Assembly (NCBI GenBank): GCA_016735295.1
Contig: JAERRU010000018.1
Span: 83,774 to 130,464 of the forward strand
DNA length: 46,691 nucleotides
Source of the DNA: SAR324 cluster bacterium
Lineage (GTDB): Bacteria; SAR324; XYD2-FULL-50-16; JAERRU01
Reading direction: 5' to 3'
The notes below the pieces were generated by a model. It saw only the letters and a program-made list of their open reading frames with translations. It was not told the origin of the DNA and did not search any database. Position numbers and translations under genes: made by a program. Positions 6,754-46,691 of the stretch are shown one piece after another (the stretch's first letter is position 1; each line of letters opens with the position of its first letter).

Positions 6754-7077
6754 AATCTAAATATTCTTAATAAATTAACTAAACTAAACTAAACTAAACT
6801 AAACTAAACTAAACTAAACTAAATTTAAATATATTGAGTAAGTATTACAAGGCTTTTTGCACTTTGGCTAGGCTAATATCTAAAATATTATCCACCCAAA
6901 AATATTGCTTTGCACTCTAGCGAAAATATAATTTTTATGCAATATAAGTAGATTATATTAAATTCAACTTTTTTTTGAGTTTAATTAAGATTTATAATGG
7001 TAATTTAAGTATCTCATTTTAAATAGGACAAAATTAGCTCTTATATTTTTACATAATTAATTTTTTAAATTTTTGAT
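6754..7077. other. Intergenic region between divergent mmsA and the Gfo/Idh/MocA gene
   Basis: This 324-bp divergent spacer must hold the promoters of both genes. Its main feature is the AAACT microsatellite at 6777-6823. The rest is very AT-rich, with a TATAAT-like box at 6993-6998 (plus strand) that lacks a well-spaced -35 partner. No RNA gene was recognised. Confidence 0.6.
6777..6823. repeat. Pentanucleotide microsatellite (AAACT)n upstream of mmsA
   Basis: There are eight perfect AAACT units at 6781-6820, flanked by AACT before and AAA after, giving 47 bp of uninterrupted repeat. It lies 23 bp upstream of the mmsA start codon, within the likely promoter or leader. Such tracts change length by slipped-strand mispairing; each unit would shift promoter spacing by 5 bp. 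Whether this locus actually varies cannot be seen here. Confidence 0.95.
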
Positions 7078-10479: not shown

Positions 10480-12054
10480 ATGAAACAAGATTTCTGGCCA
10501 GTAACTCAAGCTAATAATATCCTCAAGCGTTTAGCCAAAAACCAAGATACTATTATTTTAGAAACTGGCTACGGCCCTTCAGGTCTGCCCCATATTGGAA
10601 CTTTTGCCGAAGTAGCTAGATCAAATTTTGTGATGATGGCTCTTAAAGAACTGGCCCCTGAATTAAAATTAGAACTAATTGCCTTTTCTGATGATCGAGA
10701 CGGTCTTAGAAAAATCCCTCCTACCATTCCCAATCCTGATATTCTTAAAAATCATTTGGGCAAACCATTATCAAAAATTCCCGATCCCTTTCAAAAATAC
10801 TCCTCCTTCGCCGATTATATGAATAACCAGTTGTGCGAATTTTTAGATTCCTTTAATTTTACCTATACCTACGTTTCCGCTACCAAATTCTATGAATCAG
10901 GCCGCATGGATGAAGTATTGCTTAAAATTACCGATAATTACCAAGAAATAAAAGACCTCTTCATCAAAACCATTCATCAAGATAAAAGAGAAAATTGGTC
11001 CCCTTTTCTGCCAATTTGTCAAAAATGTGGCCGTTTATACACCACCAGAGTTACCCAAGTTGATGCTAAACTATATCAATTAGAATATTCATGCGATCAA
11101 GGAAATTCAGATCAATCCCCTGCCTGCCAGCATAAAGGTAAAATGGAAATTAATGGGGCTAATATAAAATTAGGCTGGAAGGTAGATTGGGCAGCCAGGT
11201 GGTACACCCTTAACGTTGATTATGAAATGCATGGCGAAGATTTGATTGAATCAGCTAGGATTAGTCAAAAAATTTGCCGCATACTAGGTAAACCAGCCCC
11301 GCTTACTTATAAATATGAATTATTTCTTGATGAAAATGGTCAAAAAATTTCTAAAACTAAAGGCAATGGAGTCACTATTGAAGAATGGATTAATTATTCT
11401 CCCTTTAATGGATTGCTTCATTTTATACTTGCCAACCCAGCTAAACCTAAAAAAATGGGGCTTGATATTATTCCCCGATTAGTTGATGAATATTTATCTG
11501 CCGAAAATAAAGCCTCTACTTTAGATCTATACCACCCTTTATGGTATATTAAAGGATTCAACAACTACGACGCTAGCAAGGTTAAACAGTATCCATCATA
11601 TCAATTGTTGGCTAATATAGCGGAAAGTTTAGGGGAGCATGATGTGCAATTATTACTTGATTATAGCCAGAAATATCAACCTGAAATTACTATTGATGAA
11701 GATTTTATCAATTTTTGCCAGAAAGTTAGCCAATTTGTGCGTCACACCTCTCATAAAAATAAAAAAGATATCTCCATTAACCAAGACCCAGCACTACTTG
11801 ATAACTTGAAAAAATGGCAATCTTACCTGCAAAGCTTAGCGTCAAACAGCGTGAATCCTGAAAATGCCCAAAAACAACTGTTTTCTTTGGCTAAAGAAAA
11901 TAATTTACCCATGAAAATTTGGTTTAAATTTCTTTATAATGTCTATCTCAATAAAGATGCTGGCCCTAAATTAGGTCAATATTTTGCTATTTTAGGTAAA
12001 AATAAATCATTAGAATTAACCGATATAGCTATTAAAAAAGCGACTATCCATTAG
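10480..12054 (+). CDS. lysS: Lysyl-tRNA synthetase, class I
   Basis: This enzyme charges tRNA-Lys. The 524-residue protein is the class I type, found in archaea, alphaproteobacteria and a few other bacteria, not the common class II LysRS. Class I signatures are present: GLPHIGT (the HIGH motif, residues 35-41) and KISKTKGNG (the KMSKS motif, from residue 289). A Cys set in the insertion (C180, C183, C205, C216) looks like a zinc site. The C-terminal helical part is typical of the family. It is preceded by a 125-bp AT-rich spacer shared with the divergent lptE and followed 9 bp later by a lipoprotein gene, so the two may be cotranscribed. Confidence 0.95.
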   Translation: MKQDFWPVTQANNILKRLAKNQDTIILETGYGPSGLPHIGTFAEVARSNFVMMALKELAPELKLELIAFSDDRDGLRKIPPTIPNPDILKNHLGKPLSKIPDPFQKYSSFADYMNNQLCEFLDSFNFTYTYVSATKFYESGRMDEVLLKITDNYQEIKDLFIKTIHQDKRENWSPFLPICQKCGRLYTTRVTQVDAKLYQLEYSCDQGNSDQSPACQHKGKMEINGANIKLGWKVDWAARWYTLNVDYEMHGEDLIESARISQKICRILGKPAPLTYKYELFLDENGQKISKTKGNGVTIEEWINYSPFNGLLHFILANPAKPKKMGLDIIPRLVDEYLSAENKASTLDLYHPLWYIKGFNNYDASKVKQYPSYQLLANIAESLGEHDVQLLLDYSQKYQPEITIDEDFINFCQKVSQFVRHTSHKNKKDISINQDPALLDNLKKWQSYLQSLASNSVNPENAQKQLFSLAKENNLPMKIWFKFLYNVYLNKDAGPKLGQYFAILGKNKSLELTDIAIKKATIH

Positions 12055-16600: not shown

Positions 16601-16736
16601 TTTCACCAATCAGCCGGTGGCAATCTTCAGTTAAGCTAGCCGAAATGTCGCAAAATTCACGAGTAATCCCATCGCTGCTATAATGCAAAAAGCTTCCTTC
16701 TTTTTCAATTAACAGCTTATGATTAGATATGCTCAT
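13626..16736 (-). CDS. Large CHAT-like / STAND-like / TPR-like protein with degenerate active site
   Basis: This 1036-residue cytosolic-looking protein has no signal peptide. Residues 60-325 resemble a CHAT (caspase-like) domain: CHHHWEMLHDGQDF (101-115) matches the PWELLHD motif, then come a following Ile-x-x-Leu-Arg, a strand at VPSIIIISAYFDAKG (207-221) where the catalytic His-Gly would be, and AISIEGLLDEDILGEYLELF (283-302), matching the C-terminal part of the domain. The His is replaced by Ala/Tyr and the usual SACE Cys strand reads VIFRFWDW, so protease activity is unlikely. The middle resembles the sensor and winged-helix part of STAND ATPases, but I see no P-loop. The last 350 residues are helical and TPR-like. 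Its ATG overlaps the waaA stop by 4 bp (ATGA), implying translational coupling. Function is unknown. Confidence 0.6.
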   Translation of the reverse strand: MSISNHKLLIEKEGSFLHYSSDGITREFCDISASLTEDCHRLIGEIQQDNCFFSKLSESNKKNTLAVLRDYGQQLYKAIVPKELVDSLYDYNLFYIYEKKTCHHHWEMLHDGQDFCINYIPILRAYQPKIVQSYASEQQILDRLLIYQFNCSFSSKIAGQGNKVKFFPKDKVCINPLYLANNRNRQLKVVNMGWLSRKIMDILKTDVPSIIIISAYFDAKGVIAYNEETNEQENISFYALSNILKNASLKGLKGVIFRFWDWQTNAPLPEITNWLANTGLEFAISIEGLLDEDILGEYLELFLNNLTASSKLARAHLKALARLSDRYHLALMTPYIKLYFIKNIESSFNVKIITTNTAKLISLRGNLFKKEQFVRYKFNESSFVHQISEHFNDNKNRPLTLATNEFHILEDDLYAWLVNLPTENTIGLSEIANGVDFIGLDSLEKMANSTQEIDFLDDMWRHFLLTDSNLAQSEQNLMIVPPNICSKESFNRWFKKKPYQGLVMVNLRYLRSQEKPTKFDLTKKLSPSEVFRNFSITDDDNYDWANLSSSRSPFSGNPLWQGIFCELDKDNFKKLLSLGRDDFYNYLLYQIREILSSEEFQFLVTLYLFKIPLPKEFLLSLFDANSAYAINLAKLIKLDLVFISFDKKECHLNPAYQHLFVSYNFIKDDQLLKSAKKLIIMLDGFNLDKKLTAKQIFLMSNNFSQTLAFKGDYQSAINVLLMVQEKLIKCNDFTSEYLLILGMNIMNWFDHLEAAAMPEFSDRSWRVFFETSLGWIPHNLAIKITKLAIDKFSHFEQWAPYSLATAYLAGLSYQKSDNRIFLSLAKEAVQTSKTLFGFCYFDVNISILKSLSTNNDRQLFDEFAKDFKYEHDLISHDPFRKRDLALLDLWYSLEESAEIDIFKAFERFNIFPAYIRSKLELMVTWRFLKLAYDSDKENYLIHGWQNILKIATFTQDNKTMDKACHKLFYLKLKAEDKASALKYAFLLLKRAKKDYDLTKIKFWSDKVAMIYFKVGNTAQNTEYYAISKNPSLLYLS

Positions 16737-18052
16737 AATATTTGTTTTATGATCGATGAAACCACTAAATTTAAACTACCAGCGTTTTTACGCATTTCTT
16801 GATAACCCCTTAAAGCCACTTTATCGGCTTGGGCAGGGCTAAAGTAAGCTTTTTTTAAAAACTCAACTAATGCATCTGGCGTTTGCACCACCTTGATTCC
16901 TTCAACCTTTACTAGCATATCTTTTTCCGTCTCAAAATTAGCGACATTGGGGCCTATTGCGGTATATTTTTTAGCCGCTATTGGCTCTAAAAAATTTTGT
17001 CCTCCTCTAGAGCAGATAGTACCACCCACAAACACACAATTTGCCAGCTGATACCATTTTTTTAAAGTACCCATTTTATTTAAAAAAAGCAAATTGTTAG
17101 GATAGACGTAGCTAAGTGAGCCAATCTTGGTGGGGGGTAAATTTTTATTTTTATCGGCTAAAGATGCTAAAAATTCATCTAACTTCGTAATATGACGAGG
17201 AATTATCACCAAAAATGATTTATCAGCCACTTTCCTAAAAGAATGCCAAGCTTGTAATACAAAATCAAGCTCTGATGGTTGTAATGATCCTACGACAACC
17301 AAAAAATCTTTTTCCCCTAAAGGTTTATTAAATGCTAATTGATATTCTTCAGCAAGCTCATCATCTCGCCAAGGAGTATTTAGCTCTATTTTAAAACTAT
17401 TCAGGTGCACTAAAGATTTTTTAGCTATTCCCAATTTACCAAGTCTGGCTATGCTGGCATTAGAAGCAGAGTAAAATTTATTAATTTTTGTTAAAGAATG
17501 GCCTAATAGGCTGGGTAATAATCGGTAAAGCCTAAAGCTATTAAGGCTTAATCTGGCATTAACTGCAAAAATCGGTATGTGCTTATTTCCCATATGCAAT
17601 AGAAAATTTGGCCAATAATCGCTTTCTAAAATGATGAGCGCTTTTATATTTAATTTAGAAAAAGTGTGCTTAATAAAAAAACTAAAATCAAATGGCATCA
17701 CGGCCACTAAGCTTTTATTAAATTTGCTTTGCCTATTTTTTAAAAATTCGTAACCAGATTTTGTATTAACCAAAAAAATTATTCTAAGTTGTTTCTCCGT
17801 AGCATAATAAAGATCGGCAAACTTAATGGCCAGCATAGCCTCACCAAAGCTGGCACTATGAATAATGATTACTGGTTGATGGTGATTGTGCGGGGAATTT
17901 AGCGTGATAGGTGAATATTTCCAATAGATAAACTTTCTAGCTAGCAACCAACGAAAATCTGCCCGGGAAATGCCAGCTATTAATAATAAAGGAGTTAGCA
18001 AGATTAAGATTATAATATAAATCAAATCTAAAATAACAGCTCTAGCAGACAT
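16733..18052 (-). CDS. waaA: 3-deoxy-D-manno-octulosonic acid (Kdo) transferase
   Basis: This GT30 enzyme adds Kdo from CMP-Kdo to lipid A precursor at the inner membrane. The 439-residue protein has an N-terminal membrane anchor (about residues 8-27), the catalytic base Glu in HSASFGEAML (E71), the conserved LESDYWPNFL (usually ELWPN), and the C-terminal CMP-binding segments FVGGTICSRGGQNFLEP and YTAIGPNVANF. All key residues appear present. Whether it adds one or two Kdo units cannot be told. Its stop codon overlaps the start of the CHAT-like gene. The gene diverges from the outer-membrane protein at 18326 across a 273-bp spacer. Confidence 0.92.
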   Translation of the reverse strand: MSARAVILDLIYIIILILLTPLLLIAGISRADFRWLLARKFIYWKYSPITLNSPHNHHQPVIIIHSASFGEAMLAIKFADLYYATEKQLRIIFLVNTKSGYEFLKNRQSKFNKSLVAVMPFDFSFFIKHTFSKLNIKALIILESDYWPNFLLHMGNKHIPIFAVNARLSLNSFRLYRLLPSLLGHSLTKINKFYSASNASIARLGKLGIAKKSLVHLNSFKIELNTPWRDDELAEEYQLAFNKPLGEKDFLVVVGSLQPSELDFVLQAWHSFRKVADKSFLVIIPRHITKLDEFLASLADKNKNLPPTKIGSLSYVYPNNLLFLNKMGTLKKWYQLANCVFVGGTICSRGGQNFLEPIAAKKYTAIGPNVANFETEKDMLVKVEGIKVVQTPDALVEFLKKAYFSPAQADKVALRGYQEMRKNAGSLNLVVSSIIKQIL

Positions 18053-19690: not shown

Positions 19691-20695
19691 ATGCAGCCAG
19701 GACTTAGTTTATCACAAAATGAAATTGATTCTTTATTTAAGGGAGTAATCAATCCTGAGAGTAGCGATCAATTCCAGTCTAATATAGAAGAGAATGATTT
19801 TATTAGCTATGATTTAGCTAATTTTGATCGTATCATTCGTGGTCGTATGCCTACTTTAGACATAATCCATGATAGATTTGTGAGGATGTTTCGTTTGTCA
19901 CTATCTTCTATTTTAAGAAAGGTAACTGATATTAGCATTAGAACCACTGAATTAATGAAATTTGGTGAGTTTATGAATACGGTGCCTTTTCCGTCATCGT
20001 TAAATTTATTTCGCATAAATCCTTTGCGTGGTAATGCTATTTTAGTTATGGAAACTAGGTTAATATTTAGTTTAATAGATATTTTATTTGGGGGTACAGG
20101 AGAACTTGAGGTGCAAGGGCAAGGGCGAGATTTTACGCCAATTGAGCAAAAAATTATTAAACGTTTAGTGATTAGTGCTTTACTTGATTTACAAAATGCT
20201 TGGCGGCCTGTGTTTCCTGTTCAAATCACCTTTTCTCGATCTGAAATAAATCCGCAATTTGCCGCGGTAGTGCCTCAAAGTGATAATGTGTTTGTGGTTA
20301 CTTTTGATCTTGAAATTGGCAAAGCACCTATGTCTATGATACTTTGTTTACCTTTTGGTATGCTTGAGCCAATTAGGGCACAGATGCAAGCTGGGTTTCA
20401 AAGTGATACCAGTGAAATGGATTCTATCACCTTAAGAAGGCTTCGTAATTCTTTGGAGAGCTCGGCTGTAGATTTAAAGGTTCAATTAGGTAAAACTGAA
20501 ATTAGTGTTAAAGAATTTAGTGAGCTAAAAGTAGGTGATGTGTTGATGCTTAATCAAAATACTGATGAGCTTTTACCTATTATAGTAGAGGGAATAACCA
20601 AATTTCGTGGTCAATTGGGCGCCTATCACGGGAAACAATCGATTAAGATTAATGAATTTATTTATAGTCCACCTTATTTTGAGGAATTTACTTAA
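19691..20695 (+). CDS. fliM: Flagellar motor switch protein FliM
   Basis: This C-ring protein links CheY signals to the flagellar rotor. The 334-residue protein carries the N-terminal CheY-binding peptide LSQNEIDSLF (residues 6-15), the FliM middle domain (IIRGRMPTLDIIHDRF onward, with the LFGGTGE motif) and the C-terminal SpoA/FliN-like domain (residues 255-325, KVQLGKTEISVKEF then LKVGDVLML). Length and order match the family. No other flagellar or chemotaxis gene lies nearby, which is unusual, since fliM normally sits with fliL, fliN or other C-ring genes. Confidence 0.95.
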   Translation: MQPGLSLSQNEIDSLFKGVINPESSDQFQSNIEENDFISYDLANFDRIIRGRMPTLDIIHDRFVRMFRLSLSSILRKVTDISIRTTELMKFGEFMNTVPFPSSLNLFRINPLRGNAILVMETRLIFSLIDILFGGTGELEVQGQGRDFTPIEQKIIKRLVISALLDLQNAWRPVFPVQITFSRSEINPQFAAVVPQSDNVFVVTFDLEIGKAPMSMILCLPFGMLEPIRAQMQAGFQSDTSEMDSITLRRLRNSLESSAVDLKVQLGKTEISVKEFSELKVGDVLMLNQNTDELLPIIVEGITKFRGQLGAYHGKQSIKINEFIYSPPYFEEFT

Positions 20696-37373: not shown

Positions 37374-39935
37374 ATGTTAACTAAATTAATAATTGGTCAA
37401 GAGTCCAAAACTCTAAGTGAAATGCTAACTAATGTTTTGACTAATCATTACCAAAATGTCGAAATATTTAATGAACCTGAAGTCACTAATTGGATAGAAT
37501 TAATCGCTAGAATAAGGCCTGAGCTAGTGATATACGGCAAGCGGCTAGATCAAACAAGTATTGATTTTAATAAAGATCAAATTGGTTATGATTTACCTAT
37601 TATCATTTTAATTGAAGATGAGGATGAAGAAGTAAATAGTGAATTTTGGGGAGATCTAAATGTGATCGGGGTGTTGCAAAAGCCTTTTGAGTATCAAGAA
37701 TTAATTGATAATCTCAGCAAAATAGTGCAAGAATCTCCTTTAGAGCTAAGCCAAGAATTACCTCAATTTGAAGCCGTTGATCAAGAATTAATGAGCCTGT
37801 TTGAAGATAAAACCCCCTCATCACCAACTAGCCAAGACCCAATTTTAAAAGAAATAACTGCTACTATCGATCCTGTAGAACAATTAACCAAGCTTGATAT
37901 TAATAATAATAATAATAATAATGTCGATGAATTATCAAGTAGGGAAAATTCACTATCTGAAGAAGAGACCATTGATAGCCCCAGCTCCCCGATTAACTTG
38001 GTGGGCACGCCGGCAAATGAAGTTACTGATGATGGGCAAGAGATAATAGCCGGGGCTTTACCTGATACTTTTCATCCTCAAAGTGAGTCCACTAGTGAGC
38101 ACTCAAAAGATGACGCTTCACTTGATGTGTTTGATAATATCACATCAAACATAAAGCCATCACCAATTGAAGGCGAGACCCTTGATGAGCAGGTGATGGA
38201 TACTAACTTTGATGGCCATTCTTTAGCCCAAAATTTAGGCATTACCACCGACGCTCGTAAAGAGGATAAATATGCTGTAGGAGGTGAGGATAATTCAATA
38301 AAAACTTTTACTAGTGATTCTTTAAAAAATGTGCCCACTACTGACCTAGATAGTGAGCTGGAAGAAATAAAAATCGATTTTGATGATACTGAAACCTCTG
38401 CCCAAGAAGTCGACGAAATTTCTACACAAAAGCAGTTTATCAACTCAGATACTAAAGAAGATATTGCAACACCTAAAAATGATAGCCAGGCAAGTTCATC
38501 TGATGAATCATTGCTTGAAGAAATCAAAGAAAACAGCGCAGAAATAAGCTCTGACTCTAATGAGTTAATGGATATTTTTGATAATGTTCCTATTGATAAT
38601 GATCATCCCAGCGAGTCGAGTGATGATAATCTTTTAGAAACTGAAACATCCCATAATGAATTTGATAATCCCCAGCTTAGCTTATCAGGAATGAATAAAT
38701 TGGGTGAAAATCAATCAACTAATGATAGCGATAATTTTCTCAACGCTTCACGTTTTGAAGCAGAACTAAGCGAATTTCCCTTGGATAATGATAAAACCAA
38801 TTCATTGGAAAATGATTTTTTGCCCCCCACTCCTCCAACTGAATTAATAACAGATAATCCTCAAGGTGAAATAACTAGTTATGAAGATATTGTAAATGAG
38901 AATTTAGCGGAGGCTCAAGATGATGATTTTGATAGTGAGTTAGATAAAGATCAGATAGATTTATTTTTAAATCCAATTGATGATAATGCAAATAATGATA
39001 AAGAGGCTGATGAGCAGAAAATAAATACTAAATTTACCGAGCAAGCTATCTTAGTTAAACAACAGCTTAAAGATACGTTTAAATATGAGGAGATTCCGCT
39101 TAAAGATCCATCGCACGAGGAGGATTTTGGGGCATTTGCTGCGATAGATGATAGCAAGCAAAATCAATTTGATAAATTATCCGCCAACCCGCCGACTAAT
39201 TTTGATGAGATAGGTTTTGATACCAATAATATGGCACTCAATAAAAGTGATTTGCTGGATATAACTAGTGGTAATTTGGACGAAGAACCGGCAGCCGATG
39301 TGGCTGTTGAGATGGATGATGAATTGGTTAACACAGATTTAACCGATAAACCTATTGATGATGTTAATACTGATAATGATTTATCCAGCATAGACCTAGA
39401 CGATAAAATTAATGATGTTAATGCTAACGCTGATTTAGCTAGCATAGACCTAGACGATAAAATTAATGATGTTAATGCTGATACTGATTCAGCTGACATA
39501 GACCTAGACGATAAAATTGCTGATGTTAATGATAACGCTGATTTAGCTAGCATAGACCTAGACGATAAAATTGCTGATGTTAATACTGATAATGATTTAG
39601 CCAGCATAGACCTAGACGATAAAATTAATGATGTTAATGCTGACGCTGATTTAGCCAGCATAGACCTAGACGATAAAATCGCTGACATCAATACTGATAC
39701 TGATTTAGCTAGCACCGACCTAAACAAAGAATCAGAAACCGGCGGGCAAGATAACCCAAAATTGCTGTCTCAATCAGACGTTATGCGAAAAATTAAATCC
39801 ACCATCTCTGAACTTAATATGCCTGAAAGCTCATTTAAAGAAAAAATTAAACTTATCGAAAAGCATCTATCTATCTCTGAAGAACATAATTGCTTAACAA
39901 GAGATATGATAAGAAAACTAACCAACGATACATAA
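37374..39935 (+). CDS. Large acidic protein with pseudo-receiver domain and 18-residue tandem repeats
   Basis: This 853-residue protein has no signal peptide or membrane helix. Residues 3-115 fold like a response-regulator receiver: the first strand is LTKLIIGQE, the phospho-acceptor strand reads PELVIYGKRL with Gly55 where the Asp should be, and the conserved Lys-Pro (K103-P104) is in VLQKPFEY. It therefore should not be phosphorylated normally. Residues 120-650 are Asp/Glu/Ser/Asn-rich and probably disordered, with a run of seven Asn. Residues 654-785 hold seven 18-residue repeats. The last 55 residues (SDVMRKIKSTISEL onward) are a compact helical domain. I do not recognise the family. It is monocistronic. 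Confidence 0.65.
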   Translation: MLTKLIIGQESKTLSEMLTNVLTNHYQNVEIFNEPEVTNWIELIARIRPELVIYGKRLDQTSIDFNKDQIGYDLPIIILIEDEDEEVNSEFWGDLNVIGVLQKPFEYQELIDNLSKIVQESPLELSQELPQFEAVDQELMSLFEDKTPSSPTSQDPILKEITATIDPVEQLTKLDINNNNNNNVDELSSRENSLSEEETIDSPSSPINLVGTPANEVTDDGQEIIAGALPDTFHPQSESTSEHSKDDASLDVFDNITSNIKPSPIEGETLDEQVMDTNFDGHSLAQNLGITTDARKEDKYAVGGEDNSIKTFTSDSLKNVPTTDLDSELEEIKIDFDDTETSAQEVDEISTQKQFINSDTKEDIATPKNDSQASSSDESLLEEIKENSAEISSDSNELMDIFDNVPIDNDHPSESSDDNLLETETSHNEFDNPQLSLSGMNKLGENQSTNDSDNFLNASRFEAELSEFPLDNDKTNSLENDFLPPTPPTELITDNPQGEITSYEDIVNENLAEAQDDDFDSELDKDQIDLFLNPIDDNANNDKEADEQKINTKFTEQAILVKQQLKDTFKYEEIPLKDPSHEEDFGAFAAIDDSKQNQFDKLSANPPTNFDEIGFDTNNMALNKSDLLDITSGNLDEEPAADVAVEMDDELVNTDLTDKPIDDVNTDNDLSSIDLDDKINDVNANADLASIDLDDKINDVNADTDSADIDLDDKIADVNDNADLASIDLDDKIADVNTDNDLASIDLDDKINDVNADADLASIDLDDKIADINTDTDLASTDLNKESETGGQDNPKLLSQSDVMRKIKSTISELNMPESSFKEKIKLIEKHLSISEEHNCLTRDMIRKLTNDT
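37902..37922 (+). repeat. AAT trinucleotide repeat coding for poly-Asn
   Basis: Seven AAT codons in a row lie inside the acidic protein gene, encoding seven Asn. Slippage would change length in steps of one residue and keep the frame. Confidence 0.9.
39333..39725 (+). repeat. 54-bp coding tandem repeats in the acidic protein gene
   Basis: Units of 54 bp (18 codons) of the form SIDLDDKINDVNADADLA run from 39387 to 39710 as six close copies, preceded by one diverged copy (39333-39386) and followed by a partial one. Variation is concentrated at the N/A before DVN and at the AxAD positions; the codons for IDLDDKI are nearly identical, which indicates recent expansion. The reverse strand is also open here, but only as a shadow of the repeat. 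Confidence 0.95.
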
Positions 39936-40788: not shown

Positions 40789-41328
40789 ATGAATCAATCT
40801 TTTCACGCCACCACCATATTAGCTGTAAGACGTAAAAATAATGTAGTTATGGTTGGAGATGGGCAGGTCTCTTTAGGCAATACTGTAATGAAACAAAATG
40901 CCGTTAAAATTAGACGTGCCTATAATAATCAAGTGTTAGTTGGCTTCGCTGGCTCCACTGCTGACGCCTTTTATCTGTTTGAAAAATTTGAAACTAAATT
41001 AGAAGAATTTGCCGGAAATCTATCAAAAGCCTCTGTCGAGCTGGCTAAAGAGTGGCGAACTAATAAAATATTTCGTCATTTAGAAGCCATGCTGTTAACC
41101 GCCAATAAAGATAATTCTTATATTTTATCGGGCAGAGGAGATGTGATTGAACCAGAAGATAAAATAATGGCCATTGGCTCTGGTGGCCAATTTGCCCTAT
41201 CTGCGGCTAAAGCTTTGATTGATAAAACCGATCTTAGTGCTAAAGAAATAGCCATTCATGCAATGAAAATTGCCTCTGAAATATGTGTTTTTACTAACTC
41301 ACACTTCACTATTGAAGAAATCAACTAA
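40789..41328 (+). CDS. hslV: ATP-dependent protease proteolytic subunit HslV
   Basis: This is the peptidase ring of the HslUV (ClpQY) protease. The 179-residue protein reads [10 protein letters not shown] at the start, so after removal of a 7-residue propeptide the catalytic N-terminal Thr is T8. It also contains [22 protein letters not shown] and the typical [14 protein letters not shown] end. Propeptides longer than one Met occur in some alphaproteobacterial and Gram-positive HslV. The unfoldase hslU, normally next to it, is absent; argH follows 35 bp downstream. Its partner must lie elsewhere in the genome, if present. Confidence 0.93.
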
Positions 41329-41363: not shown

Positions 41364-42866
41364 ATGGCAAAGCAAGATAATGAGAAAAATAATGACCTCC
41401 CTTTTTGGTTAAAGCAATCCACCAACGAGGCGTTTAATTTAAATTTAGCCTTTACTACCGGCCGAGACGTTAAAGATATTCCTATGGCGGATAGTGAATT
41501 ATTTTATGCTGATATTTATACCAATTTAGCCCACGCTCAGATGTTATTTGCTCAAAAAATTATCACCAAAGATGAGCATAACGACCTGAAAGTAGGCTTA
41601 ATTGAATCGCGCAAAGCGTTTGCTGCTGGAACTTTTAAACTTAATCCAAAATTAGAAGATGTTCATATGAATATTGAACAACGGCTAACCAAAGATTTAA
41701 AAATTAAAGCAGCAGAAAAATTACATACCGCGCGCAGTCGTAATGACCAAGTAGCCACTGATATGAAGATTTATCTAAGGCAAAGGCTAACCGACGTTAC
41801 CCAATCTTCAATTAACTTAACTAGCTTAATGATAAAGCTAGCCGATAGAGAAAAAGATGTGATTATGCCCGGATTCACCCACTATCAACCGGCTATGTAT
41901 ACTAGTTTTGGGCATTTGGTTGGTGCTTGGATTGAAGTTGAGCTAAGAAATATCACACGCATGATTAATAGTTTGCACCTATTTAACCAATGCCCGCTTG
42001 GTGCTGGGGCTGGATATGGCACTTCTTGGCCCATTGATCCTGATTTAACTGCGAAATTATTAGGCTTCACCAGTTCTGCCAACAACACGCTTGATGCGGT
42101 TAGTTCTCGCGGTGAAATGGAGGCCCAATTTTCTTTTGACTTGGCGATAGCTAGCAGCCATTGGAGCAGAATTGCTCAAGATTTAATTTTATATTCTCAT
42201 CCTTATTTCTCATTAATCAATGTTAGCAGTGAGTATGTCACTGGCTCATCTATCATGCCCCAAAAGATTAATCTTGATTTTGCCGAAATTATAAGAGCAA
42301 AAACTGCCCTTAGTCATGGTAATTTACAAAGTATTTTATCTATCATCAAGGGATTACCTAGCGGATATAATAGAGATTTACAACAGACTAAATATATCAT
42401 CCTTGATCTTTTCAGGGAGCTTAATGATATCCCGATTATTTTAAAAAATGTGTTGGCTGATCTTAGCGTTAATCGAGAAAATTGTTTAGCCAGATGCAAG
42501 GATAGTGGCATGGCAGCGATTGAGGTTACTAATTTTTTATCATATAAATATAATTTAGGTTTCAGAAAATCTTACCTAATTGTTAGTCAAGCAATTGCTT
42601 TAAATTCTGATCACTCTTTAAATCTTAAATCATTAAGGCAAATTTTAAAAAAACAAGATTTACCCATATCTATTAGTGATAGCGAATGGGAAAAAGCTAT
42701 TGACCCTAAAGAAAGTTTATCTCGGCAAAAAACTCTTGGCTCGCCCAATCCTAAAATGTTAAAACTTGCTCTTGAAAATAGCAATACTAAGCTTGACCAT
42801 CTATCAAAAAAACTTTTTTCATTTAAAGAGAACTATCAAAGTAATTTAGCTAATTTACTAAAATAA
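41364..42866 (+). CDS. argH: Argininosuccinate lyase
   Basis: This enzyme splits argininosuccinate into arginine and fumarate, the last step of arginine synthesis. The 500-residue protein belongs to the fumarase/aspartase superfamily: KLHTARSRNDQVATD, MPGFTHYQPAMYTSFGH (with the catalytic His), and the signature loop GSSIMPQKINLDFAEI, where the usual KKNPD reads KINLD. It is about 40 residues longer than typical ArgH proteins, with a C-terminal extension. The catalytic Ser of the SS pair is kept. No other arg gene is near; it sits between hslV and the GT9 array. Confidence 0.9.
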   Translation: MAKQDNEKNNDLPFWLKQSTNEAFNLNLAFTTGRDVKDIPMADSELFYADIYTNLAHAQMLFAQKIITKDEHNDLKVGLIESRKAFAAGTFKLNPKLEDVHMNIEQRLTKDLKIKAAEKLHTARSRNDQVATDMKIYLRQRLTDVTQSSINLTSLMIKLADREKDVIMPGFTHYQPAMYTSFGHLVGAWIEVELRNITRMINSLHLFNQCPLGAGAGYGTSWPIDPDLTAKLLGFTSSANNTLDAVSSRGEMEAQFSFDLAIASSHWSRIAQDLILYSHPYFSLINVSSEYVTGSSIMPQKINLDFAEIIRAKTALSHGNLQSILSIIKGLPSGYNRDLQQTKYIILDLFRELNDIPIILKNVLADLSVNRENCLARCKDSGMAAIEVTNFLSYKYNLGFRKSYLIVSQAIALNSDHSLNLKSLRQILKKQDLPISISDSEWEKAIDPKESLSRQKTLGSPNPKMLKLALENSNTKLDHLSKKLFSFKENYQSNLANLLK

Positions 42867-42887: not shown

Positions 42888-43898
42888 ATGAAGGTTCTTT
42901 TATTGCAAACAAAAAAAATCGGCGATGTGCTGTTAACCACTCCGGCAGTAAGAGCTTTAAAAGATACTCACCCTGATTGGGAGCTTCACTATCTTACTTC
43001 TCCTCCTTGCGATCAAATTTTTCAAAATTCTCCTTATATCAGTAAAGTTTGGCGACTCAGTCTAAAAGCTGGTTTTAAAGAAACCATTCGTATAATTAAA
43101 AATATAAGACGCGAAAAATTTGATATTTTAGTTGACCTTTTGCCTAGACCTCGCACTGCGGTTATTGCCCTTTTTAGTGGTATTCCTAAAAAAATTGGCT
43201 ATAGAGCCCCGCATCTCAGACATCTTGCTTATCACATTAAGTTACCATATCCTAAAAAGACAACCTATTATGCGGCTGTTGTGTTTTCATTATTAGCTCC
43301 ATTAGGGGTTAAAAAGAAAAATTTGGATATAGATTTTCAAGGGCAAAGAGCTCGTGAACCTAGAAAAATTAATGCTAGCCAAGATATAAATATATCTATC
43401 TCAACTGTATCTATGACTAGCAATAAACGCTGGCCTAAGGATAATTTTATAAAACTAATTAATAGCGTCATCAACAAGGTTAACGCTCACATATTTTTGA
43501 TAGGTAGCACGGCAGAAAAAGGCTATGTAGAAAATATTTATAATGATATTGATAATAAAAAATCGGTAAGCGTGCAAACTTTTAATGACTTAACCTCTTT
43601 TTGGAAATTTACTGATACTATTGATTATCATATAGGCAACGATAACGGGCAGAGGCATTTCTTTATCGCTCGAGGCGTGCCTACTTTTGGTATATTCGGG
43701 CCAGCGATCGCTTCAGCTTGGACACCGCCTAATTCTGCTATGCATGTGATTATTGAAAATAAAGTCGCGTGTAAATTCAGCTGTTCTGCTATTTATCCTA
43801 CGTGTAATATTGAGTGTTTAGATATAAAATTGCTTAACGCCACTAACGCCGCATTAGGTGAGATAGCAAAACGCTTTCCTGAGCATATGAAAAAATAA
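42888..43898 (+). CDS. Glycosyltransferase family 9 (heptosyltransferase-like), paralogue 1
   Basis: This 336-residue GT-B enzyme resembles LPS heptosyltransferases. The N-terminal domain starts LLQTKKIGDVLLTTPAVRAL, the signature that binds the acceptor and donor in WaaC/WaaF, and the C-terminal domain has HIFLIGSTAEKGY and YHIGNDNGQRHFFIARGVP with IFGPAIASAWTP, equivalent to the Asp-x-Gly-x-x-His sugar-nucleotide site. It begins 21 bp after argH. It is the first of a tandem array; its middle (residues 100-165) and C-terminal Cys-rich region (KFSCSAIYPTCNIECLD) differ most from its neighbours, and the ends are nearly identical. The exact sugar is unknown. Confidence 0.85.
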   Translation: MKVLLLQTKKIGDVLLTTPAVRALKDTHPDWELHYLTSPPCDQIFQNSPYISKVWRLSLKAGFKETIRIIKNIRREKFDILVDLLPRPRTAVIALFSGIPKKIGYRAPHLRHLAYHIKLPYPKKTTYYAAVVFSLLAPLGVKKKNLDIDFQGQRAREPRKINASQDINISISTVSMTSNKRWPKDNFIKLINSVINKVNAHIFLIGSTAEKGYVENIYNDIDNKKSVSVQTFNDLTSFWKFTDTIDYHIGNDNGQRHFFIARGVPTFGIFGPAIASAWTPPNSAMHVIIENKVACKFSCSAIYPTCNIECLDIKLLNATNAALGEIAKRFPEHMKK

Positions 43899-43900
43899 AA

Positions 43901-44899
43901 ATGAAGGTTCTCTTAATTCAAATAAAAAAAATTGGCGACGTGCTGTTAACCACTCCAGCAGTGAGAGCTTTAAAAAATACTCATCCTGATTGGGAACTTC
44001 ACTATCTTACTTCTCCGCCTTGCGATCAAATTTTTCAAAATTCTTCTCATATAAGCAAAGTTTGGCTGCTCGATAGAAAAGCTGGTGTTAGAGAAACTAT
44101 TCGTATAATTAAAAGCATAAGACGCGAAAAATTTGATATTTTAGTCGACCTTTTGCCTAGAGATCGCACTGCGGTTATTTCACTTCTCAGCGGTATTTCT
44201 AAAAGAATCGGCTTTAACTCACCGTACATCAGGCATATTGCTTATAATATTAAATTACCCGCACCCAAAAAAACCATCTATTTTGCGGATGCCGTGTTTT
44301 CACTATTAGCTCCATTAGGGGTTAAAAGAAAAAACTTGGATATGGATTTTCAAGGGCAAAAATCCCGTAAACCTAGAAAAATAAGTGCTAGTAAAGATAT
44401 AAATATATCTGTATCAACTGTATCTATGGTTAGCAATAAGCGTTGGCCTAAAGACGATTTTATAAAACTAATTAATAGCGTCATCAATAGAGTTAACGCT
44501 CGTATATTTTTGATAGGTAGCACGGCAGAAAAAGGCTATGTAGAAAATATTTATAATGATATTGATAATAAAAAATCGGTAAGCGTGCAAATTTTTAATG
44601 ACTTAACTTCTTTTTGGAAATTTACTGATACTATTGATTATCATATAGGCAACGATAACGGGCAGAGGCATTTCTTTATCGCTCGAGGCGTGCCTACTTT
44701 TGGTGTTTTTAGTAGAGAAATCGCCTCGGCTTGGACACCGCCTAATTCTGATATGCATGCAACTATTGAAAATAAAGTCGAGTGTAAATCAAACAGCCTT
44801 GACGTTTATCTTAAGTGTTTAGATATAAAATGGCTTGACGCCACTAACGCCGCATTAGGTGAGATGGCAAAACGCTTTCCTAAGCACATGAAAAAATAG
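43901..44899 (+). CDS. Glycosyltransferase family 9 (heptosyltransferase-like), paralogue 2
   Basis: This is the second copy in the array, 332 residues, starting 2 bp after the stop of the first. It shares the KKIGDVLLTTPAVRAL start and the GNDNGQRHFFIARGVP loop with its neighbours. Distinctive parts are VFSREIASAWTP in place of the IFGPAIAS version, so the Gly-Pro after the ARGVPTFG strand is lost, and a shortened C-terminus (CKSNSLDVYLKCLD). The Gly-Pro change could affect the donor site. No ribosome binding site fits in the 2-bp gap, so translation likely depends on reinitiation from copy 1. Confidence 0.83.
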   Translation: MKVLLIQIKKIGDVLLTTPAVRALKNTHPDWELHYLTSPPCDQIFQNSSHISKVWLLDRKAGVRETIRIIKSIRREKFDILVDLLPRDRTAVISLLSGISKRIGFNSPYIRHIAYNIKLPAPKKTIYFADAVFSLLAPLGVKRKNLDMDFQGQKSRKPRKISASKDINISVSTVSMVSNKRWPKDDFIKLINSVINRVNARIFLIGSTAEKGYVENIYNDIDNKKSVSVQIFNDLTSFWKFTDTIDYHIGNDNGQRHFFIARGVPTFGVFSREIASAWTPPNSDMHATIENKVECKSNSLDVYLKCLDIKWLDATNAALGEMAKRFPKHMKK

Positions 44900-44901
44900 A
44901 A

Positions 44902-45909
44902 ATGAAGGTTCTTTTACTGATCACAAAAAAAATTGGCGATGTGCTGCTAACCACTCCGGCAGTGAGAGCCTTAAAAAATACTCATCCTGATTGGGAACTT
45001 CACTATCTTACTTCTCCGCCTTGCGATCAAATTTTTCAAAATTCTTCTCATATAAGCAAAGTTTGGCAACTCAGTAGAAAAGCTGGTCTTAGAGAAACTA
45101 TTCGTATAATCAAAGATATAAGACGCGAAAAATTTGATGTTTTAATTGGCCTTTTACCTAGAGATCGCGCTGCGGTTATTTCACTTTTTAGCGGCATCCC
45201 TAAAAGAATCAGCTACAAAACTAACCACCCCAGACACCTTGCTTTTAATATTAAAATACCCCTACCCGAAAACGACACCTATTATGCCTCTAATGAATTT
45301 GCATTATTAGCTCCATTAGGTGTTAAAGGAGGTAGTCTAGATGCAGACTTTCAAGGCCAAAGAGCCCGTGAACCTAAAAAAATAAGTGCTAGTAAAAATA
45401 TAAATATATCTGTATCAACTGTATCTGGGGATGCTAATAAACGCTGGCCTAAAGACAATTTCATCAACCTAATTAACCGCATTCTCGATAAAGTTAACGC
45501 TCGTATATTTTTAATAGGTAGTACGGCAGAAAAGGATTATATAGAAAATATTTATAATGCCATTAATAATGAAAAATTGGTAAGCGTGAAAACTTTTAAT
45601 GACTTAACCTCTTTTTGGAAATTTACTGATACTATTGATTATCATATAGGCAATGATAACGGGCAAAGACATTTCTTTATCACTCGGGGGGTACCCACTT
45701 TTGGTATTTTCGGGCCAGCAATCGCATCAGCTTGGACACCGCCTAATTCTGATATACATGCAACTATTGAAAATAAAATTTCGTATAAATTCAGCCGTTC
45801 TCCTATTTTCCATGGCTATATTGATTGTCTAGGCATCAAATGGCTTGACGCCACTAACGCCGCCTTACGCGAAATAGCAAAATTTTTCCCTGAACACATA
45901 AAAAAATAA
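44902..45909 (+). CDS. Glycosyltransferase family 9 (heptosyltransferase-like), paralogue 3
   Basis: This is the third copy, 335 residues, 2 bp after copy 2. It has the same domain order, with LITKKIGDVLLTTPAVRAL and GNDNGQRHFFITRGVP. Its variable middle (KRISYKTNHPRHLAFNIKIP, then ENDTYYASNEFALLAP, then GGSLDADFQ) is shared with copy 4 and not with copies 1 and 2, so copies 3 and 4 form a pair. Its conserved ends match all four. The C-terminal variable piece (SRSPIFHGYIDCLGIK) is unique to it among the complete copies. Confidence 0.83.
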   Translation: MKVLLLITKKIGDVLLTTPAVRALKNTHPDWELHYLTSPPCDQIFQNSSHISKVWQLSRKAGLRETIRIIKDIRREKFDVLIGLLPRDRAAVISLFSGIPKRISYKTNHPRHLAFNIKIPLPENDTYYASNEFALLAPLGVKGGSLDADFQGQRAREPKKISASKNINISVSTVSGDANKRWPKDNFINLINRILDKVNARIFLIGSTAEKDYIENIYNAINNEKLVSVKTFNDLTSFWKFTDTIDYHIGNDNGQRHFFITRGVPTFGIFGPAIASAWTPPNSDIHATIENKISYKFSRSPIFHGYIDCLGIKWLDATNAALREIAKFFPEHIKK

Positions 45910-45911
45910 AA

Positions 45912-46691
45912 ATGAAGGTTCTTTTACTGATCACAAAAAAAATTGGCGATGTGCTTCTAACCACTCCGGCAGTGAGAGCCTTAAAAAATACTCACCCTGA
46001 TTGGGAACTTCACTATCTCACTTCTCCTCCTTGCCATCATATTTTTCAAAATTCTCCTCATCTCAGCAAAGTTTGGAAACTCAGTAGAAAAGCTGGTCTT
46101 AGAGAAACTATTCGTATAATCAAAGATATAAGACGCGAAAAATTTGATGCTTTAGTTGACCTTTTACCTAGAGATCGCACTGCGGTTATTTCACTTTTTA
46201 GCGGCATTCCTAAAAGAATCAGCTATAAAACTGACCACCCCAGGCACCTTGCTTTTAATATTAAAATACCACGACCCCAAGAAGAAGATACCTATTATGC
46301 ATCTAATGAGTTTGCATTATTAGCTCCATTAGGTGTTAAAGGTGGTAGCCTAGATGCAGACTTTCAAGGCCAAAGAGCCCGTAAACCTAGAAAAATCGGC
46401 GCTAGTCAAGATTTAAATATCTCTATCTCAACTGTATCTGATGATACTAATAAGCGCTGGCCTAAAGAGAATTTCATCAACCTAATTAATAGAGTCCTCA
46501 ATAAAGTTAACGCTCGTATATTTTTGATAGGTAGTACGGCAGAAAAGGGCTATGTAGAAAATATTTATAATGCCATTGATAATAAAAAATCGGTAAGCGT
46601 ACAAACTTTTAGTGACTTAATCTCTTTTTGGAAATTTACTGATACTATTGATTATCATATAGGCAACGATAATGGGCAAAGGCATTTCTTT
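45912..46691 (+). CDS. Glycosyltransferase family 9 (heptosyltransferase-like), paralogue 4, cut by window end
   Basis: This is the fourth copy, starting 2 bp after the third stop. The frame is open for 260 codons to the window edge and ends in the GNDNGQRHFF motif. It has the same N-terminus (LITKKIGDVLLTTPAVRAL); its centre (ISYKTDHPRHLAFNIKIP, PQEEDTYYASNEF) is closest to copy 3. One substitution in the otherwise constant acceptor-side segment is CHHIF instead of CDQIF. The C-terminal variable region is beyond the window, and further copies may follow. Confidence 0.83.
   Translation, partial: MKVLLLITKKIGDVLLTTPAVRALKNTHPDWELHYLTSPPCHHIFQNSPHLSKVWKLSRKAGLRETIRIIKDIRREKFDALVDLLPRDRTAVISLFSGIPKRISYKTDHPRHLAFNIKIPRPQEEDTYYASNEFALLAPLGVKGGSLDADFQGQRARKPRKIGASQDLNISISTVSDDTNKRWPKENFINLINRVLNKVNARIFLIGSTAEKGYVENIYNAIDNKKSVSVQTFSDLISFWKFTDTIDYHIGNDNGQRHFF

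Follow-up and report, generated by a model that had tools for sequence, protein, structure and literature searches.

Described relatives of the array

The described systems closest to the locus considered here are glycosyltransferases of family 9 (GT9). Escherichia coli WaaC (HepI) and WaaF (HepII) have the GT-B fold and match the GT9 profile; residues R60, R63, K64, R120, K136 and R189 of WaaC are named as acceptor or acceptor-side contacts (PMC9068772, PMC8124905), with R189 reported to contact the acceptor phosphate (PMC9068772). Helicobacter pylori has several GT9 enzymes (HP0279, HP1191, HP1284, the heptan transferase HP1283, and HPG27_1229/1230), several of which are assigned their own heptose step, or the heptan, in the lipopolysaccharide (LPS) (PMC6892558), and the bacterial autotransporter heptosyltransferase TibC, an iron-containing GT-B enzyme, requires each of the four cysteines of its iron site for oligomer formation and activity (PMC4358343). 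Here, we describe an array of at least six GT9 genes from a SAR324 cluster bacterium (assembly GCA_016735295.1), the first three of which, and most of the fourth, lie at the end of a stretch of 46,691 nucleotides, referred to below as the window. On our best reading, the array is a lineage-specific tandem expansion of the single core GT9 gene (of heptosyltransferase fold) of the SAR324 clade, and we regard acceptor specialisation after this expansion as the likeliest account of it, with a probability of roughly 0.5.

A tandem array of at least six GT9 genes

Four GT9 open reading frames (ORFs) follow each other head to tail and in frame at the end of the window, with periods of 1013, 1001 and 1010 bp; the original prediction of four in-frame tandem copies, 2 bp from stop to start and with a period of about 1000–1013 bp, thus agrees exactly with the ORF coordinates. 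The window ends where its contig, C5 (130,464 bp), ends. The start of another contig, C27, matches the end of C5 exactly over 113 bp and is followed by further copies, bringing the array to at least six; when the two contigs are joined, copy 4 becomes a complete gene of 1014 bp and six intact copies are obtained in total, as was foreseen in the suggestion that the array might extend past position 46691. The true number of copies may be larger. Every spacer between copies, including those before copies 5 and 6, is AA, exactly 2 bp, and the six co-directional genes probably form one translationally coupled operon. A promoter scan found sites no more frequently than in shuffled sequences, a terminator scan gave a result only about one standard deviation above shuffles, and no RNA structure was seen at the junction between copies 1 and 2.

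The six copies are 82–89% identical in DNA and 74–83% identical in protein sequence (mean 78% for amino acids). As anticipated from the first four copies, the six-copy alignment is best conserved in the amino-terminal part and around the GNDNGQRH segment, and most variable at about residues 100–165 and 290–310, in the centre and the C-terminal tail. In a genome-wide search with PF01075, all seven matching places, every array copy included, were above the curated cut-off of 22 bits, with the array copies scoring 45–66 bits; a further GT9 gene, on contig C4, is only 25% identical to the array. All six copies are intact and under purifying selection, with a ratio of nonsynonymous to synonymous divergence (dN/dS) of 0.23–0.38 and dS values of 0.24–0.56 across all copy pairs.

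The host is a marine bacterium with a reduced genome (1.52 Mb, about 90% complete, about 34% GC), the GC content of the window is 33.6%, and the nearest named homologs of the array come from SAR324-cluster (Lambdaproteobacteria) genomes. For the glass sponge Vazella pourtalesii, small, AT-rich SAR324 genomes (1.5–2.2 Mb, 32–33% GC) have been described (PMC7426153); this is a parallel and not an identification of the host. Among the genomes compared, this one is the sole member of its family. With the family profile at E ≤ 1e-50, a single ortholog (about 30–38% identical) is present in 47 of the class's other 51 genomes and none in the remaining four, against six matches here, so that the comparison of copy number with related genomes, suggested in the original prediction, returned no second array. 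No tandem paralogue array was present in 130 loci fetched around homologs, and no close relative or sister species with the array was found when genome contigs were searched with copy 1 alone. The single-copy SAR324 genes (loci L126–L164, L182 and L183 of our set) are the nearest homologs (about 28–37% identity over the aligned part); they align over their full length and share a C-terminal cysteine motif with the array, but they differ in occurring once, in having other gene neighbours and in retaining P173, R176, G207 and P208. In a phylogenetic tree, all six copies group together in a single clade (support 1.0) on a long stem. An origin from a mobile element was considered and dropped, as viral contigs and phage records held only remote GT9 matches. 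The size of the array is unusual, yet what has expanded locally is a known enzyme family, and the array is not a new kind of system.

Fold, catalytic residues and likely donor

An AlphaFold model of copy 1 (predicted local distance difference test score 89.7, predicted template modelling score 0.88) has a predicted GT-B fold like that of WaaC and WaaF. Its best matches in the PDB are the GT9 structure 3tov, WaaC (2h1h and 6dfe, including a structure with an ADP-heptose analogue) and WaaF (1psw). Entry 3tov, from Veillonella parvula, is the best PDB match of the array in both sequence and fold, but it is a lone structure with an entry title that gives no function, and it is only 19–22% identical to the array. 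Residues D13, K192, E222, D261 and H266 of WaaC correspond to D13, K180, E210, D252 and H257 of the array, and all five are identical in the six copies; we take D13 to be catalytic and the other four to bind ADP-heptose. The array differs from WaaC and WaaF in its low identity to them (about 17%) and in its six tandem paralogues, and from WaaC in its replacement of R189. The resemblance to the H. pylori set lies in the presence of several GT9 enzymes in one genome, whereas no tandem array of near-identical copies is reported in that study (PMC6892558), in which the tandem alleles belong to another locus.

Genes for HldD, LpxC and WaaA were found above cut-off in the host genome, together with an HldE-like bifunctional protein (PfkB plus cytidylyltransferase) below its cut-off. 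The gene for WaaA, the transferase of 3-deoxy-D-manno-oct-2-ulosonic acid (Kdo), suggests an LPS inner core of the Kdo type, which is what GT9 enzymes usually have as acceptor. Heptose is likely to be the donor of the array enzymes, judging from these genes.

Acceptor side and position 176

Position 176, the equivalent of R189 in WaaC, is M, M, G, D, E and E in copies 1–6, whereas it is arginine in 45 and lysine in one of 46 aligned single-copy relatives. P173 and G207 (each present in 46 of the 46 relatives) and P208 (45 of 46) are replaced in every array copy. The changes at 173, 176, 207 and 208 imply that the array ancestor probably altered its substrate contacts and that the copies then diverged there. 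The array varies most in the segments aligned with the acceptor loops of WaaC: 17 of 24 columns are variable there, compared with 53 of 136 elsewhere in the N domain (p = 0.006). Among catalytic or donor columns, 5 of 31 vary.

In the mechanism that we propose, a single core GT9 gene would have been expanded in tandem to at least six co-directional genes, with the catalytic and ADP-heptose-binding residues kept and the acceptor-loop segments and position 176 left to diverge. All copies would use an identical or similar ADP-activated heptose, each attaching it at an acceptor position of its own, and the operon may thus build a heptose-rich inner core that is longer or branched, or some other envelope glycan.

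Several observations weigh against acceptor specialisation by heptosyltransferases. The acceptor loops of single-copy orthologs are likewise more variable than average, by a ratio of 1.25 in the mean and up to 1.46, versus 1.63 in the array; this control with matched single-copy sets makes the excess in the array modest, and partly a general property of the family. The ancestral changes at P173, G207 and P208 could mean that the donor has changed, and not just the acceptors. The equivalog cut-offs of the LPS heptosyltransferase I, II and III models (TIGR02193, TIGR02195 and TIGR02201) were not reached (56–88 bits versus 134.6–185.3). GmhA was not found with two models (TIGR00441 and SIS_2, PF13580) in the 90%-complete genome, so the supply of ADP-heptose is only partly accounted for; GmhA may be missing from the incomplete assembly or may have been replaced. 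Finally, three copies (2, 3 and 6) have lost part of a four-cysteine motif, which is considered below.

Dosage, gene conversion and mixed complexes

The copies might instead all perform the same reaction and be kept because more enzyme was useful, with their divergence reflecting drift under relaxed constraint. The invariance of the catalytic residues and the variability of acceptor loops in orthologs would fit such a dosage effect. Synonymous divergence on the scale observed, with purifying selection on every copy, is nevertheless long for pure redundancy, and position 176, always R or K in the relatives, bears four different residues among the copies; we therefore regard dosage as an unlikely main explanation, but one worth bearing in mind.

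A second possibility, about as doubtful as the first, is a contingency array in which the copies would exchange segments by gene conversion, making the surface glycan vary between strains or cells. The original prediction attributed the mosaic appearance of the copies to repeated duplication plus gene conversion, and proposed site-wise phylogenies as a test. A pairwise homoplasy index (PHI)-type test was significant for all informative sites (p = 0.001), and also without the contig-spanning copy 4 (p = 0.001–0.004). Identical tracts of about 50–97 bp, beyond chance among polymorphic sites, link copies 2 and 3 (pair p = 0.0005), 4 and 5 (p = 0.001) and 1 and 2 (p = 0.002), and these three signals would withstand correction for 15 pairs. 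In approximately unbiased (AU) tests, the middle third of the gene rejected the tree that fits the first third best (p = 0.007), and the first third rejected the tree that fits the last third best (p = 0.0005). However, a single tree, ((c1,c2),((c3,c4),(c5,c6))), was accepted by all thirds (AU p = 0.21, 0.82 and 0.50), synonymous divergence was not significantly uneven along the gene (p = 0.06–0.12), the PHI-type test gave no consistent significance for third codon positions (p = 0.03–0.56), and the tract shared by copies 4 and 5 sits on the C27 part of copy 4, past the contig join. The mosaic was at first read as gene conversion on the strength of the PHI-type test; the results for third positions, the AU tests and the dS analysis then lowered the weight given to that reading. 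Copies 3 and 4, for example, share their centre because they are sister copies, and the fit of one tree to all thirds, with no significant unevenness of dS, indicates that the mosaic is mostly a matter of protein-level constraint and sister-pair relatedness. The duplication half of the claim thus stands, whereas the conversion half has weak support, from the PHI and short-tract signals, set against a common tree. Overall, we favour tandem duplication that left sister pairs adjacent, with protein constraint accounting for most of the patchiness and perhaps with short conversion tracts in the array.

The C-terminal cysteines raise further possibilities. Relatives have the motif CxxxC-YPxC-xxxC (41–43 of 46 for the columns counted), and copies 1–6 have 4, 2, 1, 4, 4 and 2 C-terminal cysteines, respectively. 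TibC resembles the array in being a GT-B heptosyltransferase with a four-cysteine iron site (PMC4358343), and it is found among the fold matches of the copy 1 model at rank 30 and below. It differs in having an N-terminal beta-barrel and a beta-hairpin thumb, whereas the array proteins have the GT-B N lobe at their very start, with D13 in its first loop. TibC-like protein glycosylation, suggested by the cysteine motif, was considered and dropped: the array proteins lack the beta-barrel, and no autotransporter domain (PF03797) was found in the host genome, which is about 90% complete. It is conceivable, at long odds, that the operon is an assembly line of near-identical heptosyltransferase-like enzymes, whose divergence lies mainly in the acceptor loops, and that these would build a position-specific heptose oligomer not previously described in SAR324, with cysteine-intact and cysteine-depleted copies in mixed complexes. 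We consider slightly less probable still an explanation of the array by mixed complexes as such, in which the cysteine-intact copies 1, 4 and 5 would form the active or structural core and the depleted copies 2, 3 and 6 would be hetero-oligomer partners or a scaffold. The cysteine counts, the conservation of the motif in orthologs and the TibC precedent would be compatible with this, but the catalytic residues are all kept in the depleted copies, the comparison with TibC is loose given its other domains, and metal binding in the array is putative.

Assembly

Elsewhere in the assembly, seven pairs of contig ends share overlaps of exactly 117 bases, which points to a graph assembly with a word size of 117. 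The 113-bp overlap between C5 and C27 is shorter than this word and thus points to a dead end, such as a coverage gap, and not to a repeat branch; as no two different copies match exactly over more than 97 bases, direct adjacency of C5 and C27 is the simplest reading. An assembly artefact, with several strains or a mis-joined repeat mimicking an array, could be invoked from the splitting of copy 4 over two contigs and the break inside the array, but is very improbable, because one contig holds three copies and most of the fourth, mutually 11–18% different and with identical AA junctions, the overlap is longer than any identity between copies and shorter than those at the seven other joins, and the contamination estimate is 0.03.

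Neighbouring genes and other features

The coordinates of the array and of associated genes are given in Table 1. The argH-like lyase gene and the array are likely to belong to the same transcription unit, to judge from their spacing. The 3' side of copy 6 carries a gene for a hypothetical protein without a Pfam match, then one for a CheA-like protein.

Table 1. Array copies and associated genes (window coordinates unless a contig is named)
Feature	Position	Strand	Evidence or remark
GT9 copy 1, 336 aa, all four C-terminal Cys kept	42888..43898	+	ORF; PF01075, 65.7 bits
GT9 copy 2, 332 aa, two C-terminal Cys remain	43901..44899	+	ORF; PF01075, 52.2 bits
GT9 copy 3, 335 aa, one C-terminal Cys remains	44902..45909	+	ORF; PF01075, 54.2 bits
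GT9 copy 4, first 260 codons, open at window end	45912..46691	+	remainder on contig C27:114-347
GT9 copies 5 and 6	C27:350-1363 and C27:1366-2385		ORFs on C27; array continuing past window
argH-like lyase, 21-bp gap upstream of array	41364..42866	+	PF00206; spacing
hslV-like peptidase, upstream of argH-like gene	40789..41328	+	PF00227
Kdo transferase (WaaA), same window as array	16733..18052	-	PF04413, 114 bits

Other features of the window and genome were recorded in passing. An 853-amino-acid acidic protein without a Pfam match is encoded at window positions 37374–39935, with a 54-bp tandem repeat near its C terminus (39354–39722, 6.8 units, of the SIDLDDKI.DVN type); asparagine runs (NNNNNN) are found in several predicted proteins, including this one and that encoded at 2467–3288 of C27 (locus L008). 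A perfect AACTA pentanucleotide repeat of 9.4 units (6777–6823), in which length variation is possible, sits between an aldehyde dehydrogenase gene on the minus strand and a GFO/IDH/MocA oxidoreductase gene. A class I lysyl-tRNA synthetase, the less usual form in bacteria, is encoded at 10480–12054. The occurrence in a 1.5-Mb genome of genes for FliM (19691–20695) and for the CheA-like protein, with Hpt and HATPase domains (C27, L008:3324–4964), suggests that motility and chemotaxis may have been kept despite genome reduction.

Significance

The array points to no new mechanism. As a set of tandem envelope glycosyltransferase paralogues with an unchanged catalytic core and a diversified acceptor side, it is a natural experiment in the change of specificity in the GT9 family. 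This gene occurs once in relatives with genomes up to five times larger. That at least six copies have been retained in 1.5 Mb is notable, and suggests an importance of the surface glycan in this lineage.

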